64,000 nucleotides of DNA from Sphingobium sp. WTD-1. GTDB taxonomy: Bacteria; Pseudomonadota; Alphaproteobacteria; Sphingomonadales; Sphingomonadaceae. The stretch covers positions 12,968 through 76,967 of the forward strand of contig NZ_CP119129.1 of NCBI RefSeq assembly GCF_030128825.1. Reading direction: 5' to 3'. The notes under the pieces were generated by a model. That model was not told where the DNA came from. It did not search any database and saw only the letters and a program-made list of their open reading frames with translations. Positions 3,456 through 64,000 of the stretch are shown one piece after another. The position numbers and the translations under genes are program-made. The number at the start of each line of letters is the position of its first letter. The first letter of the stretch is position 1.

Positions 3456-4415
3456 TTAGCGTGCCCCGCCCCGCGCGAGGCGGTCCATAAGATCGTCCAC
3501 TTCCCCGGCGCGGCGACGATCGGCCTCGTAACGCTCATGGCGCTCGCGTTCGGCCTCTAGTCTAGCGTGCAGCTCGGCTGCCTCGGCCGCGCCGCGCAGC
3601 TCGAACAGTACTGCCGGCGCGCCCTCGACCGTCTTGGTCATGGTCATGGTGTATTCGGGGAGTTGGTCGGCCTCGATGATCTTCCGCAACATGCGGTTGA
3701 ACTCCTTGGGCTGGGCGTCACTCCCGGCCTTCTCTCGCAGCAGTTCGACGCGGCACGTCCATCCGCCCCGCTGACTGCCGGCGTGCTTGCGCGCGATACG
3801 ATACACTGCCCGCTCAAGCCCGCCTGTCAGCAGGAAATAATCGACGTGCATGGTGAGAAGCGACCGCTCGCTGACAATCCCCTCATAGACCCAGTTCGAC
3901 AGGGTGATGGTCATCCCGCGCGGTTGCTCTGTCGCGGGATCGACCTCCAGGCTCCACCCGTCCAGCCACCCGAATTGCGCTTCGGTGCGGCGCTTGGGCG
4001 CGCGCAGCGACGTGCGAATGGAAGTCGTCTCCAGGCGCGACAAAGCCGCCTGCAGCTCGGTATAGTCGCGCCCGCCCGTCCCGCGCCGGATCGCCCGCAA
4101 CAGGTCGTAGGTCGTCGTGGTCAGCGTCCGGGGCAGATCGTTGACGCCCTGCTCCTTCATCCGGTTGAGGACCGACGCGGCCCAAATCAATATGTCGGCG
4201 TCCCATATCGTCGCCATGCCGTAGGCGGGCATCGCCTCGACCTTCACCCACGCCTCGCCGTCCGGGCTGCGATATTCGATCGGCTTGAGGCGCTTACGTT
4301 TCTGGAGCGAGAAAAACGGGCGCTCCATCACCTCCCGCTGATCCTTCAGCGGGAGGTCGTTCATCAGCGGAATGAACAAGTCGAACGTGGGATTGGGATC
4401 GCGGCGCTTGCTCAC
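3456..4415 (-). CDS. repA: Replication initiator protein RepA, RPA family
   Basis: The 319-residue product resembles the alphaproteobacterial plasmid replication initiator RPA family (Pfam Replication initiator protein A). Typical stretches are FDLFIPLMNDLPLKDQREVME near the N terminus, IWDADILIWAASVLN, TTYDLLRAIRRGTGG and the winged-helix part around LLTMHVDYFLLTGGLERAVYRIARKHAG. It should bind the iterons just downstream and open the origin. The ATG overlaps the stop of the ribbon-helix-helix gene (ATGA, 4412-4415), so parA, the small gene and repA form one minus-strand operon. Translation of repA is probably coupled. The C-terminal ~40 residues are charged and low in complexity. Confidence 0.9.
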   Translation of the reverse strand: MSKRRDPNPTFDLFIPLMNDLPLKDQREVMERPFFSLQKRKRLKPIEYRSPDGEAWVKVEAMPAYGMATIWDADILIWAASVLNRMKEQGVNDLPRTLTTTTYDLLRAIRRGTGGRDYTELQAALSRLETTSIRTSLRAPKRRTEAQFGWLDGWSLEVDPATEQPRGMTITLSNWVYEGIVSERSLLTMHVDYFLLTGGLERAVYRIARKHAGSQRGGWTCRVELLREKAGSDAQPKEFNRMLRKIIEADQLPEYTMTMTKTVEGAPAVLFELRGAAEAAELHARLEAERERHERYEADRRRAGEVDDLMDRLARGGAR

Positions 4416-11799: not shown

Positions 11800-13440
11800 G
11801 GAAGCGGCCCCTCGAAGGGGCGCACTGCCTTGATGAAGGCAAGGGCGCGTAGCGCCCGCAGGCTTCATCAAGGCGGTCATGATCGGCCCGCAGGTCTCTA
11901 AAGTGAAGTTGTCGACTCAACCCTTTGGAGACAGACCGACCATGACCAAGCGTAGCTCTAATCCCACCGACGCCGTGCTGGTAGCCATCGATATGTCCAA
12001 ACACCGCCAGGAGGTCCTGATCGAACGTCCAGAAGGCGGACCCCGACGTCGCATGACGGTGATGGCGACAAAGGCAGATTATGATCGCCTGGCCACGGAT
12101 CTTAGCGACATCGGGCGTCCGATCATCGTCGGCTTCGAGGCTACTGGTAACTACCATCGCACGCTGGCGCATCGCCTGCTGTCCGCCGGCTTCGAGTTGC
12201 GCTTGATCTCGTCCGTTGCCTTGGCTCGAACGCGCGAGGCTCTGCACAATGGCTGGGACAAGAACGATTCCAAGGATGCGCAAGTGATCCTGCACATGCT
12301 GCGGATTGGCGCCACCCAGCGATACGTCGATCCGCTCGCCGCCGGGATCAACGACCTGCAGGAGATGTCGAAGACGCATGAAGCCATATCAAAGGCGAAG
12401 ACCCAGGCCTGGCATAGGATCCTGACCCACTACCTGCCGCTGTATTTCCCGGAGATCGAGCGTTTCGCCGGCAACAGCCGGTCTGACTGGTTCCTGGCGC
12501 TGATCGAACGTTTCCCGACGCCGGGGAGCATCATCTCGATCGGCCGCGAAGCCTTCACTGAACAGGCCTGGCCGTTGATCGGTCGCAAGGTCTCCAAGGC
12601 CCGGGTAGTCAACGATATCTATGAGACCGCCTCTGCATCGATCGCGCTGCCGATTGACGAGGATTCCACTGCGATCACGATGTTCCGCATGGTCGTCGCT
12701 CAGGCTCGTACCCTGATCCAACAACGCAATGAGATTGAGCGGATCGCCCATGACGCGCTGGCCGCGAACCGCGATTATCAGCTTCTGCGGATGATCCCAG
12801 GCATCGGACCGATCAATGCCCTGACGATCCTTGCCGAGGCCGGTGATCTGCGCCGCTTCAGCCATCATCGCCAGTTTCTCAAGTTCTGTGGCCTCGACCT
12901 CGCTACCTGTCAGTCCGGTATGTTCCGCGGTCGGACCAAGCTGTCAAAGTATGGCAATGCCCGGTTGCGGCGTACATTCTGGATGGCGACGCAGGTCGCG
13001 ATCCGCCAGCGCGACAACAGCTTCCGCGATAAGCTGGGGCGCTATGTCGCCGGGTATCCCAACGACCCCGATCGCCGTCGCAAGGCGATGACCGCGCTCA
13101 CCGCCAAAATGGCGCGCGTTGCGCATGCCGTCATCAAGACGGGAACCGAGTACCGTCCGTTCGTCGAACGGGCGGACACCAGATGGAAGGACCCCTCTCT
13201 GTGCAGCCGTGAGGGCGCTACCGCGACCCTGTAGATAATGTTCGGGCCTTCCATCTGGCATCCGTATCTCATTTTAAGGACGGTGAGGACCACGACCCAC
13301 GCGGCTGCTGGATCCTGTGTTTGCTATGGCCGAGAGCGCATTCCTTGACGATGGAAGCCATCTGGATCATAAAAATCATCAGCGCCGATTACACTCGGCG
13401 CAACGAGACCTGCTGGCCTTTGCCCGCTGCTGCTTCCCTA
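11800..13440 (+). mobile_element. IS110-family insertion sequence (ends approximate)
   Basis: An IS110-type transposase gene with flanking non-coding DNA is inserted in the IS3 orfB. IS110 elements usually lack terminal inverted repeats, so the limits are set only by where the IS3 reading frame breaks and resumes and are accurate to a few tens of bases. The ~140 bp before the transposase and ~200 bp after it are non-coding. The upstream or downstream stretch would hold the bridge RNA if this member uses one. Confidence 0.75.
11942..13234 (+). CDS. IS110-family transposase (DEDD)
   Basis: The 430-residue protein has the IS110 architecture. An N-terminal RuvC-like DEDD domain starts [15 protein letters not shown] (first Asp), has [16 protein letters not shown] (Glu) and ends in [13 protein letters not shown] (Asp pair). 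The C-terminal transposase_20 domain carries [22 protein letters not shown] and the catalytic-Ser region [11 protein letters not shown]...[15 protein letters not shown]. The ATG at 11942 has GGAGAC about 10 nt upstream. Recent work shows IS110-type recombinases can be guided by a bridge RNA; no RNA has been modelled here. Confidence 0.92.
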
Positions 13441-59949: not shown

Positions 59950-60141
59950 TGTGCCATTATGGCTGAACCGGTTCCCTCTCACGGCCCCGGACCGCGCTTC
60001 ATGACACGTCATCATGTTGTCGGTGTTCCATCTTTCGTGAATCGGCGCGATCCAGAAACTGAGTCGGAACAATGATTTGAGTCTATTGGCTTTGTTCCAT
60101 CTCTGTGAACTGCCCCAAAAATGTGCCATCAATGTGAACGG
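59950..60141. repeat. Four transposase-binding-type repeats at the transposon left end
   Basis: The consensus TGTKCCAT-N5/6-TGAAYSG occurs at 59950-59971, 60024-60045, 60093-60112 and 60122-60141, all in the same orientation. The distances are 74, 69 and 29 bp. Irregularly spaced direct repeats of about 22 bp next to the tnsA gene are what TnsB/TniA-type transposases bind in Tn7-like ends. Otherwise 59842-60154 holds no gene. Confidence 0.75.
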
Positions 60142-60154
60142 AGTCGCGTCCCAA

Positions 60155-60778
60155 ATGGAGGCCAAGCTGCGCCGCATCCCGCTCAGTCGCCGATCGCATG
60201 TGATCGGCTCGCAATCCCTGGACACGGGCGTGGCGGAGCATGAGAGTGCGCTAGAACGGGATTTTGTGACGCTGGCGAGCTTCGCCGATCCCGGCGCAGT
60301 GGTAACGGCGCAGCCGGTGACGATACGGTTCAGACAGGGCGAACAATCGCGGCGATACACACCGGACTTCCGTGTCGACTGGAGCACAGGTTCCACTGAC
60401 TTTGTGGAGGTCAAGTATCGTGCCGACCTGCGCGCAAGTTGGTCGAACCTGCGGCCGGCGTTTGCTGCGGCTAGACGGTGGGCGCAGGAGCATGGTGCGC
60501 GGTTCCGGATCGCAACCGATTGCGGCATCCGCAGCGCAAGGCTCGAAGCCGCGAAGAGGCTTCTTCCCCTCAGGAACGCGCCTGTCGATCCAGCACTTGC
60601 CGAGTTGGCGGTAGCGAAGGCCCGGACGGAGAAGATGGACTTCATAGGTCTGGTCGATGCGCTACCGGCTTCGCGCGAAGTGGCGCTGGGCGTGGTCTGG
60701 CGCCTGATCGCGCGTGGGGCTCTGAGCGTCGACCTGACGGCACCGATCCTTCCCGGCTCATCCGTGAGGGCGGCGTGA
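60155..60778 (+). CDS. TnsA-like endonuclease
   Basis: The ~207-residue protein has the TnsA nuclease pattern: an acidic residue in GVAEHESALERDF, then RYTPDFRV and STDFVEVKYRADL (E-x-K), giving a PD-(D/E)xK-type active site. The C-terminal part (FRIATDCGIRSARLEAAKRL) matches the TnsA C-terminal helical region. It would cut the 5' ends of the transposon, allowing cut-and-paste movement. ATG 60155 is preferred; an in-frame TTG at 60077 would add 26 residues overlapping the repeats. Its stop overlaps the TniA start (GTGA). Confidence 0.8.
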   Translation: MEAKLRRIPLSRRSHVIGSQSLDTGVAEHESALERDFVTLASFADPGAVVTAQPVTIRFRQGEQSRRYTPDFRVDWSTGSTDFVEVKYRADLRASWSNLRPAFAAARRWAQEHGARFRIATDCGIRSARLEAAKRLLPLRNAPVDPALAELAVAKARTEKMDFIGLVDALPASREVALGVVWRLIARGALSVDLTAPILPGSSVRAA

Positions 60779-62442
60779 CTGCCCCGGAACTTACGAAGGT
60801 TCCGGAAGCTGCGTGGGAGGAGGCACGCCGTTGCTTGCCGGTGATCCGGCGCCTTGCGGAAAGCTCCGACCGAACGCGGGCCGAGGTTAAAGCCGCGGCA
60901 GCGGAACTGGGATATGGGCCGACGCATGTTTACAGCCTGATACGCAGCTATACGGCCGACCCGCGGCTGACGAGCCTGCTGCCGAGCAAGCGAGGTCGGG
61001 CGTTCGGCTACTCCAAGCTCGACAGCGAGGTCGAGGCGATCATTAACGACGTGATCGACAGCCTGTATCTCACGCGACAGAAGCCGAAGATCGTCGATCT
61101 TGTCGCGGAAGTGCAGCGACGTTGCATCGCGCGAGGGTTGGAAGCACCTGGCCGCAAGGGTGTTACTGCCCGGTTGCGGGCGCGGCCGGCGCAAGAGGTG
61201 GTCGCCAAGCGTGAGGGCCGCAAGGCGGCCCGCGACCGTTACGCGCCGGCGATAGGATCGCTGGAAGCGCACTGGCCGTTGTCGCTGATCCAGATCGATC
61301 ACACGCTGGTCGACGTGATCGTCGTCGACAGCGAGACGCGGGCGCCGATCCAGCGGCCTTGGCTGACGCTTGCGATCGATGTCTGCACGCGCTGCGTTGC
61401 CGGCTTCCATCTCTCGCTGGAGCCGCCGTCGGCGACGTCGGTTGCGCTTTGCCTCGCCCATGCCGCGCTCGGCAAGGAAAGCTGGCTGGCAGAGCGCGGT
61501 ATCGATGCGGTCTGGCCGGTGCGCGGCGTGCCGGAGCGGCTGCATCTCGACAATGCCAAGGAGTTCCGGTCCGAGGCGCTGAAACGGGGCTGCGAGCAAT
61601 ATGGTATCGCCATCGACCATAGGCCGGTGCGAACGCCCCACTACGGCGGGCATATCGAACGGCTGATCGGGACGATGATGGGCAAGGTCCATCTGCTGCC
61701 CGGAACGACCTTCTCGAATATCCGGGAGAAAGGCGATCTCAATCCCGAGAAAAGTGCAGCGATGACGCTGGACGAGGTGGAGCGCTGGCTCGGTCACGCG
61801 ATCGCCGGCGTCTATCATCGCGATCTGCATCGCGGGATAGGCATGACGCCGGTTGCGGCCTGGGAACGCGGTATCGCTGGCGACGGTCGCACGCTTGGCC
61901 GGGGCGAACCAACGCCGGTTGCCGATCCGCGCCGCTTCCTGATCGACTTCCTCCCAATCGAACGGCGCCTGGTGCGCCGGGAGGGCGTATCGCTGCACTC
62001 GATCCACTACTGGGCCGATATGCTCGCGGCCTGGGTCGGCCACCCGGAGCGCATGATCGTGCGCTATGATCCGCGCGACCTCAGCCGCATCCATCTGCTC
62101 GGCCCCGACGGGGCCTATTACGACCTTAGCTACCGCGATCTGCGTCGTCCGCCGATCAGCTTGTGGGAGCATCGCCTGGCGCTGAAACGGCTGCGTGAGG
62201 ACGGCCGCGCGCAGGTCGACGAGGCCGCAATCTTCCGCACCATCGAGATCATGCGCGGCATCGCCGACGAGGCGGTGCGGGCGAGCAAGACTGCGCGGCG
62301 CCAGCGGGAACGGCGGTTGCGCGTCATCCAGGGCGGGTCGAACGCGCCGGTGGTGTCCGCAGCTCAGTCTTCTATCGAAGCCGAGTCCCTGGATGGCAGG
62401 CAACCCCACGAGAACATGCTGCCGTTCGAGGAATGGGGTTGA
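60775..62442 (+). CDS. TniA/TnsB-like DDE transposase
   Basis: The 555-residue protein starts with GTG 60775 in the tnsA stop. It has N-terminal helix-turn-helix segments and a retroviral-integrase fold: first Asp in LIQIDHTLVDVIVVD, second in RLHLDNAKEFRSEAL, Glu in HYGGHIERLIGTMMG. A beta-barrel (Mu-type) domain follows (RRLVRREGVSLHSIHYWADML). It catalyses strand transfer and binds the end repeats. Confidence 0.93.
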   Translation: MTAPELTKVPEAAWEEARRCLPVIRRLAESSDRTRAEVKAAAAELGYGPTHVYSLIRSYTADPRLTSLLPSKRGRAFGYSKLDSEVEAIINDVIDSLYLTRQKPKIVDLVAEVQRRCIARGLEAPGRKGVTARLRARPAQEVVAKREGRKAARDRYAPAIGSLEAHWPLSLIQIDHTLVDVIVVDSETRAPIQRPWLTLAIDVCTRCVAGFHLSLEPPSATSVALCLAHAALGKESWLAERGIDAVWPVRGVPERLHLDNAKEFRSEALKRGCEQYGIAIDHRPVRTPHYGGHIERLIGTMMGKVHLLPGTTFSNIREKGDLNPEKSAAMTLDEVERWLGHAIAGVYHRDLHRGIGMTPVAAWERGIAGDGRTLGRGEPTPVADPRRFLIDFLPIERRLVRREGVSLHSIHYWADMLAAWVGHPERMIVRYDPRDLSRIHLLGPDGAYYDLSYRDLRRPPISLWEHRLALKRLREDGRAQVDEAAIFRTIEIMRGIADEAVRASKTARRQRERRLRVIQGGSNAPVVSAAQSSIEAESLDGRQPHENMLPFEEWG

Positions 62443-63335
62443 GCACCGAATACCCGCATCTTCATCCATCGGCCCGCGCATGGGCCGATGAGGATGCCGC
62501 CTCGCGGATACGGCGCGTTCGCACGGATCGGTGGATCGGCTATGCACGGGCGGAAGCCGCCCTGGCGGCACTCGACGATGTGCTCTCGTTCCCGAAACGG
62601 ACGCGGATGCCGAACCTGCTCATCGTCGGGCAAACCAACAACGGCAAGACGATGATCGTCGAGAAGTTCCGGCGGAGCCACCCGCTGTCAGCCGCGACCG
62701 ATACGAATGACGGCGTGGCCTGCGTGCCTGTGCTGAAGATCCAGATGCCTTCGGGACCGGATGAGCGCCGGTTCTTCGGCGCGATCCTGGAAGAGCTGGG
62801 CATGGGCCAATGGCCGCGGGACAATCTTGCGGCCCGGCAAAGTGATGCGGTGCGGCTGATGCGGCTGACCGACGTGCGGATGCTCATCATCGACGAACTG
62901 CACAATATCCTGTCCGGCTCACGCACCCAGCAGCGCCGCCTGCTCAACTTGCTCCGTTGGCTCGGTAACGAGTTGCAGATCCCGCTGGTCGGCGTCGGCA
63001 CGGCCGAGGCGTTGCACGCAATCCGTAGCGACGATCAGCTCGCCAATCGGTTCGAGCCCGTGCCATTGCCGTTGTGGACCGAAGGGCCGGAATATCTGCG
63101 GCTGCTCAGCACGCTGGAAGCCCTGTTGCCGCTCCGCAAACCCTCCGGCCTTGCCGGGCCGGTTCTGGCGGGCACGATCTTCACCCGTTCAGAGGGCGTT
63201 CTCGGCGAGATCGTCGCGATCGTCATCCGAGCTGCGGTTGAAGCCATATCTTCCGGCACCGAGGCGATCACGCCGCGCATCATTGAACGCTCCCGGTTCA
63301 CATCGCCCTCGGACCGACGACGTGTGGAGATCTGA
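62433..63335 (+). CDS. TniB/TnsC-like AAA+ ATPase
   Basis: The 300-residue protein has Walker A VGQTNNGKTMIVEKF and Walker B VRMLIIDELHNILSG, with sensor regions in LVGVGTAEALHAIRSDDQLANRFEP. TniB/TnsC proteins select target DNA and activate the transposase. It overlaps tniA by 10 bp and tniQ by 14 bp. Confidence 0.93.
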   Translation: MGLSTEYPHLHPSARAWADEDAASRIRRVRTDRWIGYARAEAALAALDDVLSFPKRTRMPNLLIVGQTNNGKTMIVEKFRRSHPLSAATDTNDGVACVPVLKIQMPSGPDERRFFGAILEELGMGQWPRDNLAARQSDAVRLMRLTDVRMLIIDELHNILSGSRTQQRRLLNLLRWLGNELQIPLVGVGTAEALHAIRSDDQLANRFEPVPLPLWTEGPEYLRLLSTLEALLPLRKPSGLAGPVLAGTIFTRSEGVLGEIVAIVIRAAVEAISSGTEAITPRIIERSRFTSPSDRRRVEI

Positions 63336-64000
63336 ACTCTACGCGACGGAGGTCCACGAAAAGCTCGTCACACCGAACTACGCCCTGCCTGTTTATACAG
63401 CGCCGATCGCCGGCGAAGCCCTCTTGTCCTGGCTGTGCAGGCTGGCGGCGATGACCGGCCAATCGCCGCTGGCGTTCGCCCGGCAGGCGTTCGGAATAGA
63501 CAGCGTCCGCCAGCCCGAATGGTGGCGGCGTCCTTCGGCGGACCAGCGCAGCGTGTTGCTGGCCATCAGCGGGCTTCCGCCCGAGCAGTTCGACGATATG
63601 ACGCTGGAGCGCTGGTCGACCGCTCGCAACGATGAGAATGATCGGCGGTTCAGCCCGATCCGTATGATCTATCCGAAGCAGCGCGAGAGAGCAGCCCGGA
63701 CCCTGTTCGCTTGCGCCGCCTGTCTCGCAGAGGACGAGACACCCTATCTCCGGCGCGAGTGGCTGATCGGTTGGCAGGCTGTCTGCGCGCGGCATCGAAC
63801 CGTTCTTATGCGGCGCTGTCCTCATTGCCGCTGGAAGCTCAGCTCCCAGTGGCTTCGCGACAAGGAGCCGGTTGACCTGCACCGCTGTAAACGATGCGGC
63901 GGACTGTTGGCCGGGGCCAATGGGCCGCCCGCGATCGATGGCGCCATCGACCTTCAGGCTGCGATGCTCGGCGTCAAACGTCGCGGTAGCGGCGAGATCC
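63322..64000 (+). CDS. TniQ/TnsD-family target-selection protein, 5' part
   Basis: From GTG 63322 the frame stays open to the right edge (226 codons). It has the TniQ N-terminal motif PIAGEALLSWLCRLA and a zinc-finger part CAACLAEDETPYLRREWLIGWQAVCARHRTVLMRRCPHC, with a second Cys cluster HRCKRCGG. TniQ proteins direct insertion to specific sites. The remaining length decides between a short TniQ and a longer TnsD. Confidence 0.85.
   Translation, partial: MWRSELYATEVHEKLVTPNYALPVYTAPIAGEALLSWLCRLAAMTGQSPLAFARQAFGIDSVRQPEWWRRPSADQRSVLLAISGLPPEQFDDMTLERWSTARNDENDRRFSPIRMIYPKQRERAARTLFACAACLAEDETPYLRREWLIGWQAVCARHRTVLMRRCPHCRWKLSSQWLRDKEPVDLHRCKRCGGLLAGANGPPAIDGAIDLQAAMLGVKRRGSGEI

Follow-up and report, generated by a model that had tools for sequence, protein, structure and literature searches.

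A cargo-free, TnsA-bearing Tn7-like element related to Tn5053/Tn402 in Sphingobium sp. WTD-1, and the insertion of several relatives at repA ends of conjugative elements

The window considered here, a stretch of 64,000 nucleotides from Sphingobium sp. WTD-1, covers positions 12968–76967 of plasmid C3 (76,967 bp, read as a circle) and stops at the contig end. It ends inside a transposon, because the plasmid was opened there. The transposon is 4,859 bp long, comprising window positions 60018–64000 and C3:1–876, and a second copy on C2 (C2:319535–324393) is 100% identical to it over the 4,859 bp. Since this identity runs across the join, the simplest view is that C3 is a circular plasmid opened inside the tniQ gene. 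Taking the targeting described below into account, we consider it very probable that this is a complete Tn7-like element without cargo, of insertion-sequence size, and a TnsA-bearing relative of Tn5053/Tn402. Its features in the window are:

60013–60017, no strand: left copy of the target duplication CATGT (right copy, C3:877–881, outside the window; a single CATGT in the empty plasmid pSYA3-1)
60018–64000, plus strand: transposon, left 3,983 bp of 4,859 (the remaining 876 bp, C3:1–876, lie beyond the window; delimited by identity to the C2 copy)
60018–60042, plus strand: left terminal repeat TGTCGGTGTTCCATCTTTCGTGAAT, 20 of 25 positions matching the right end
60026–60042, plus strand: left end repeat 1, presumed TniA-binding site
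60095–60110, plus strand: left end repeat 2
60124–60139, plus strand: left end repeat 3
60155–60778, plus strand: tnsA, TnsA-like endonuclease, 207 amino acids (PF08722, 50.6 bits, cut-off 26.5)
60775–62442, plus strand: tniA, DDE transposase of the TnsB/TniA kind, 555 amino acids (matches TnsB of Tn6677 and of Tn7)
62433–63335, plus strand: tniB, AAA+ regulator of the TnsC/TniB kind, 300 amino acids (PF05621, 229.3 bits)
63322–64000, plus strand: 5' part of tniQ, a gene of 490 codons ending at C3:794 (PF06527, 69.3 bits)
59952–59968, plus strand: sequence resembling the end repeats, 66 bp outside the transposon (plasmids lacking the element also have it, in their unbroken flank)

The four genes tnsA, tniA, tniB and tniQ fill the element: tnsA begins 137 bp past the left tip and tniQ stops 82 bp short of the right tip. 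None of the four is a cargo, resolvase or cas gene (antisense reading frames were not scanned), and the cargo that an earlier note on this DNA expected beyond the contig end is absent. The matches to PF08722, PF05621 and PF06527 all exceed their cut-offs. The ATG start of tnsA was picked by comparison with relatives; the gene overlaps tniA by 4 bp. TniA has a Mu-transpos_C domain above the cut-off (53.8 bits) and an rve match below its own (24.9 bits), and its best-ranked solved structure is TnsB of Tn6677. The TniQ domain is N-terminal, and the C-terminal part of TniQ contains helix-turn-helix (HTH) like units with weak matches. TnsA retains E30/E34, D71 and E85-x-K87, the positions expected from the active site of Tn7 TnsA. 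In 13 aligned TnsA rows D71, E85 and K87 are invariant, and E30 and E34 nearly so; the active-site residues being present, the proposal of a TnsA-type nuclease withstands the alignment. With a TnsB-like transposase, a TnsC-like AAA+ protein and a TniQ-domain protein in one operon, and with a TnsA that has its active-site residues, the element has the composition of a Tn7-like transposon.

The element starts with TGTCGGTGTTCC, and a matching right end, the check suggested at the outset, is found at C3:876 next to the 5-bp duplication; it is an imperfect inverted copy of the left one. Each end carries three repeats of the form TKCCRTC-N3/4-GYGAAY, those of the right end lying 9, 29 and 48 bp from the tip. 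Four left-end repeats had been counted earlier; three of them are indeed inside the element, whereas the fourth, at 59952, is outside. In the window, both strands considered, the relaxed repeat pattern matches at four places only, the three left repeats and 59952; as the pattern was relaxed deliberately to take in 59952, that match may be fortuitous. Lying in native plasmid DNA, it may be due to chance or be a remnant of another element.

The 5-bp target duplications are CATGT for the C3 copy and GAGGC for the C2 copy. The empty site of the former is exact: plasmid pSYA3-1 of Sphingobium yanoikuyae has both C3 flanks joined, with one CATGT and without the element, and in a plasmid of Sphingobium sp. 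TKS these flanks overlap by 5 bp. The C2 flanks are found close together, without the element, in five sphingomonad plasmids, and the one of these that was aligned (L011) shows 91% identity with gaps near the joint. Among the copies of the family with both flanks on one contig, 14 of 15 feature TGT...ACA ends with multiple repeats inside them and are bordered by a duplication of 5 bp.

The description as a Tn5053-like module with a TnsA gene (tnsA at 60155–60778 by PF08722) is supported by sequence comparison, TniB and, less sharply, TniA appearing nearest to Tn402/Tn5053. The identity of TniB is 52.1% to two Tn402/Tn5053-type elements versus 35.0–37.1% to six other TnsA-bearing elements, while for TniA the margin is narrow (42.6–44.5% versus 32.5–43.6% for seven others). 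In the TniA tree of 24 rows, 15 family members form a single branch (support 100/100), which joins two Tn402/Tn5053 elements and one element of Sphingomonas MM-1 at 100/97. Several reference rows are very long-branched, as a warning of the tool pointed out, and hence we call the family a sister, not a member, of Tn402/Tn5053. The tree has no row for Tn7, Tn5469 or any CRISPR-associated transposon, and the four genes include no cas gene; the suggestion that elements of this kind are the parents of CRISPR-guided transposons is not supported.

A scan of species genomes for TnsA relatives yielded 18 loci, 14 of which have both ends (4,906–5,281 bp) and relatives of all four proteins. The family is alphaproteobacterial, its members measure about 4.7–5.3 kb, and there are up to six copies per genome. 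Six of the contigs from the scan, and two found later (L129 and L130, gene content unchecked), consist of the element alone within 0–2 bp, which is the hallmark of a collapsed multicopy repeat. Counting of ends gave six copies in Pseudochelatococcus contaminans, three in P. lubricantis, and two each in Mesorhizobium YC-39 and Bradyrhizobium manausense. The family is rare: in scans with differing cut-offs it was seen in 2 of 385 genomes at the level of the class, in 2 of 397 at that of the window's family, our genome being counted in both, and in 6 of 391 genomes of the family of a Bradyrhizobium host.

The new observation is strong targeting of the repA 3' end of conjugative elements in several lineages. 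Thirty right flanks were studied, and 17 of them, from nine genomes, fall at the 3' end of repA in a module typical of integrative and conjugative elements (ICEs), with the right end towards repA: six in P. contaminans, three in P. lubricantis, two in B. manausense, and L014, L016, L017, L022, L025 and L029. All 17 match RepA by tblastn, the gene being directed towards the transposon and stopping close to it; a PF10134 search matched at every one of these places, and PF10134 was confirmed in the four RepA proteins checked. On the left side, DUF2840 and/or parA are present in 14 of the 17 rows, two P. lubricantis rows sharing the left flank L079 (another left end, with CCACG, has no right-end partner), Pcon_L073 and L074 having the same duplication and resisting pairing, and Bman_L132 lacking a left match. 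For Mesorhizobium ICEs, with the exception of its symbiosis ICEs and one more, PMC8627217 describes genes for a replication initiator and for DUF2840 in the interval from rdfS to traF.

Of the 17 repA sites, 12 carry a 24-position motif, at +34 in nine cases and otherwise at +33, +36 or +30. There it encodes a LESNxESN-like tail of RepA, and the repA frame is open into the insertion. The scorable left flanks reach at most 13/24 and shuffled sequences at most 17/24. GTTAGA repeats were considered as iterons and dropped, since at 12 of 17 sites frame analysis places them in the DNA coding for the RepA C-terminus (the other five gave no row). The repA genes flanking the P. contaminans copies are 52–80% identical to one of them, and the transposon copies collapse to one contig; hence these are separate insertions. 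In the ten hosts that have insertions of this kind, 18 of 22 PF10134 genes are occupied (6/6, 3/3, 2/2, four times 1/1, 1/2, 1/2 and 1/3), one of the 18 by a 292-bp derivative. In hosts of other lineages none of six (our genome) and none of three are occupied, and one further host has no repA. The plasmid C3 itself has a PF10134 replication initiator gene (window about 3645–4346, C3:16612–17313) with no insertion. Targeting of repA is not described in the limited set of literature searched, and passages of PMC10293859 contain neither "repA" nor "replication initiat".

Another target is seen in one Mesorhizobium sublineage, where all four insertions (two copies of L013 in YC-39, L015 and a deleted copy in M. 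carmichaelinearum) are 31–35 bp from AGTCGCATAA-N6-TTATGGAACT. Flanks that are dissimilar elsewhere become homologous precisely from this site on, in the manner of a recombination core; for this reason, and because its shape recalls the E. coli dif, we call it dif-like. Its use by Xer recombinases is putative: when seven genomes were searched with a pattern resembling the E. coli dif, nothing matched with fewer than two mismatches, and the two matches that had two were poor. As a pattern, a constant spacing between the insertion point and a recognised site holds for the repA lineages and for the dif-like sublineage, the latter on few cases.

In the lineage of the window's element four sites are known, namely our C3 and C2, Rhizorhabdus p2 and the Rhizorhabdus chromosome (duplication TTCGG); L024 is a more distant relative. 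In our C3 copy, L024 and the Rhizorhabdus chromosomal copy (HTH_3 match there barely above the cut-off), the right end faces the start of a small HTH_3 gene 68–97 bp away. The C3 flank contains a dyad upstream of this gene, conserved in a Bradyrhizobium plasmid, and our C2 and Rhizorhabdus p2 sites have a common palindrome of another kind. As a lead, this lineage perhaps prefers the control regions of small regulator genes of the HTH kind that are carried by plasmids and ICEs. A dyad as a general target rule was rejected: scores of at most 0.03 (60 simple shuffles) occur in 11 of the 31 right and 3 of the 28 left flanks, and the S. baderi, Rose and dif-like sites lack a dyad by this score. GTTC-N7-GTTC, presumably the alphaproteobacterial LexA box, is found at two of three S. 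baderi sites, and a LexA-type box was not retained as the target there for that reason. The Roseiarcaceae element (L021) has copies, L086 and L087, beside similar target sequences of about 75 bp.

These data may be combined as follows. TnsA and TniA would excise the element and paste it with a 5-bp duplication; the ends, the duplication and the empty site are observed, whereas cutting by TnsA is deduced. By analogy with Tn7, TniB would connect the transposase with a TniQ-based target complex. Insertion would be steered to a constant spacing from a recognised site, right end nearest, the site being the repA 3' end of ICE-type modules in several relatives, a dif-like sequence in one sublineage and perhaps an HTH-gene control region in the window's lineage. 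What the element probably gains is transport by conjugative elements, and several relatives seem made for riding on other mobile DNA. The cut-and-paste mode, raised already in the earlier note, is supported indirectly because the TnsA residues are kept, none of the four genes encodes a resolvase, and the insertions are simple with an exact empty site. The same facts, with conservation of the TnsA residues across the family, make it very unlikely that TnsA is inactive and the element forms cointegrates in the replicative manner of Tn5053, for which its kinship in TniB and TniA would speak.

It is still more improbable that the element, as suggested for Tn5469, is untargeted and behaves like an insertion sequence, common flanks being old insertions inherited in spreading ICEs. 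Such behaviour would suit a multicopy element with no cargo and one TniQ, the unlikeness of our C2 and C3 sites, and the 13 of 30 right flanks away from repA. For the repA lineages, however, this is strongly disfavoured: the 17 insertions agree in side and orientation, 12 being within a few bp of one position, their duplications differ, and neighbouring repA genes are as low as 52% in identity. Several observations do weigh against our explanation. L022, which has both flanks, and one P. lubricantis copy show no matching duplications; five of the 17 repA sites lack the motif and show the repA 3' region in another version; and occupancy was counted only in genomes picked for holding the element. 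L015 and one YC-39 copy share a locus in two species, leaving three loci for four dif-like insertions, and of the eight exact dif-like sites in six searched genomes four are beside an insertion and four unoccupied. Finally, our two copies are at differing sequences, neither at repA, none of the six repA genes of this genome being occupied; hence any targeting rule of this lineage is tentative. Target choice that is specific and fixed in position is supported for the relatives.

The role of TniQ as the reader of the target also meets a difficulty. Two repA-targeting and two dif-like-targeting full elements of Mesorhizobium differ by fixed substitutions at one position of TnsA, 38 of TniA (half of these, 19, within residues 475–542), 16 of TniB and none of TniQ, target class being inseparable from descent in this comparison. 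One TniQ with two targets does not fit a simple model in which TniQ reads the sequence. The element might instead sense sites already bound by a protein (replication initiator, Xer recombinase or HTH repressor) and not DNA via TniQ alone; we hold this possible, if rather unlikely. The Mesorhizobium case agrees with it, as do the variety of targets (repA 3' end, dif-like core, conserved dyad upstream of an HTH gene, long palindrome, GTTC-N7-GTTC) and the position of our identical C2 and C3 copies at unlike dyads. Tn5053 reportedly seeks protein-occupied res sites, to judge by a paper title. On the other hand, the repA motif is in coding DNA at a near-constant distance, as direct reading of sequence predicts; we know of no protein that binds it; and only four of 13 non-repA sites (our C3 and C2, Rhizorhabdus p2 and L024) have a strong dyad by shuffling. 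A wider and more doubtful proposal is that the family hunts control points of conjugative elements (the replication-initiator end, the Xer/dif-like core and regulator operators), target class switching with no fixed TniQ change and tracking TniB and the TniA tail or host proteins bound to DNA. If so, TnsC/TniB, or the occupied site, would be a target chooser in its own right. The Mesorhizobium pair makes the question of what chooses the target accessible to gene swaps; L014 and L015 are 93% alike at the DNA level.

Among known systems, the nearest precedent for the layout is Tn5469, a cyanobacterial Tn7-like element which, according to PMC11406308, has no cargo genes and a single TniQ and is apparently untargeted, whereas relatives of the present element are strongly targeted; the comparison is by description, not sequence. 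Tn5053/Tn402 (tniABQR) have the closest TniB and TniA of those compared, a 5-bp duplication, a single TniQ and a preference for sites in mobile DNA; unlike them, our element has tnsA and neither a resolvase gene nor cargo. The flanks examined show contexts other than res sites, no search for which was made. Tn7 and Tn6022 (TnsABC with TnsD or with TniQ and TnsF) share TnsA, TnsB-like, TnsC-like and TniQ proteins and likewise insert, in fixed orientation, at a set spacing from a gene sequence that is recognised, but here there is one TniQ, no TnsE or TnsF gene and no cargo, and the target gene is in conjugative elements, not in the chromosome (glmS, comM). CRISPR-associated transposons have a similar Tn7-like core, including the Tn6677 TnsB closest to TniA among solved structures; the present element differs in having no cas gene and a long TniQ with its own C-terminal extension. 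According to PMC8649781, 96% of 6,549 Tn7-like transposons carry cargo. A natural element of four genes and 4.9 kb, whose TnsA looks intact, whose ends are clean and for which several natural targets exist, is a near-minimal protein-guided cut-and-paste Tn7 system, and targeting of repA ends in ICEs would be an attTn7-like strategy directed against mobile DNA instead of the chromosome.

Some copies are altered. The tniQ of L020 has an apparent frameshift near its end, and in L024 about 0.5 kb of further sequence follows tniQ. In Sphingobium baderi, an IS21-family element is situated between tniB and tniQ in one of three copies (L114:8154–10468). M. carmichaelinearum has deleted derivatives of 292 bp and about 2.1 kb; the former (L088, G011:C59:36362–36653) retains both ends, has the duplication AGAGC, is situated at a repA end and resembles a miniature inverted-repeat transposable element.

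Elements of Tn402/Tn5053 type were also encountered. The match at C2:394295 (66% DNA identity over 524 bp) was rejected as a TnsA-bearing relative, being a Tn402-type element. C2 of our genome contains (L007:5631–15519) a Tn402/Tn5053-type element with tniA, tniB, tniQ and a resolvase-like open reading frame, flanked by GAACA; by the list of its reading frames it has some that resemble a beta-lactamase and resistance-type acetyltransferases, and another resolvase-like frame is just beyond its left end. In a Pseudomonas fulva plasmid (L177:1142–6142), Tn5053-type tniABQ genes are beside a recombinase gene, and a separate tnsA adjoins them on the other strand.
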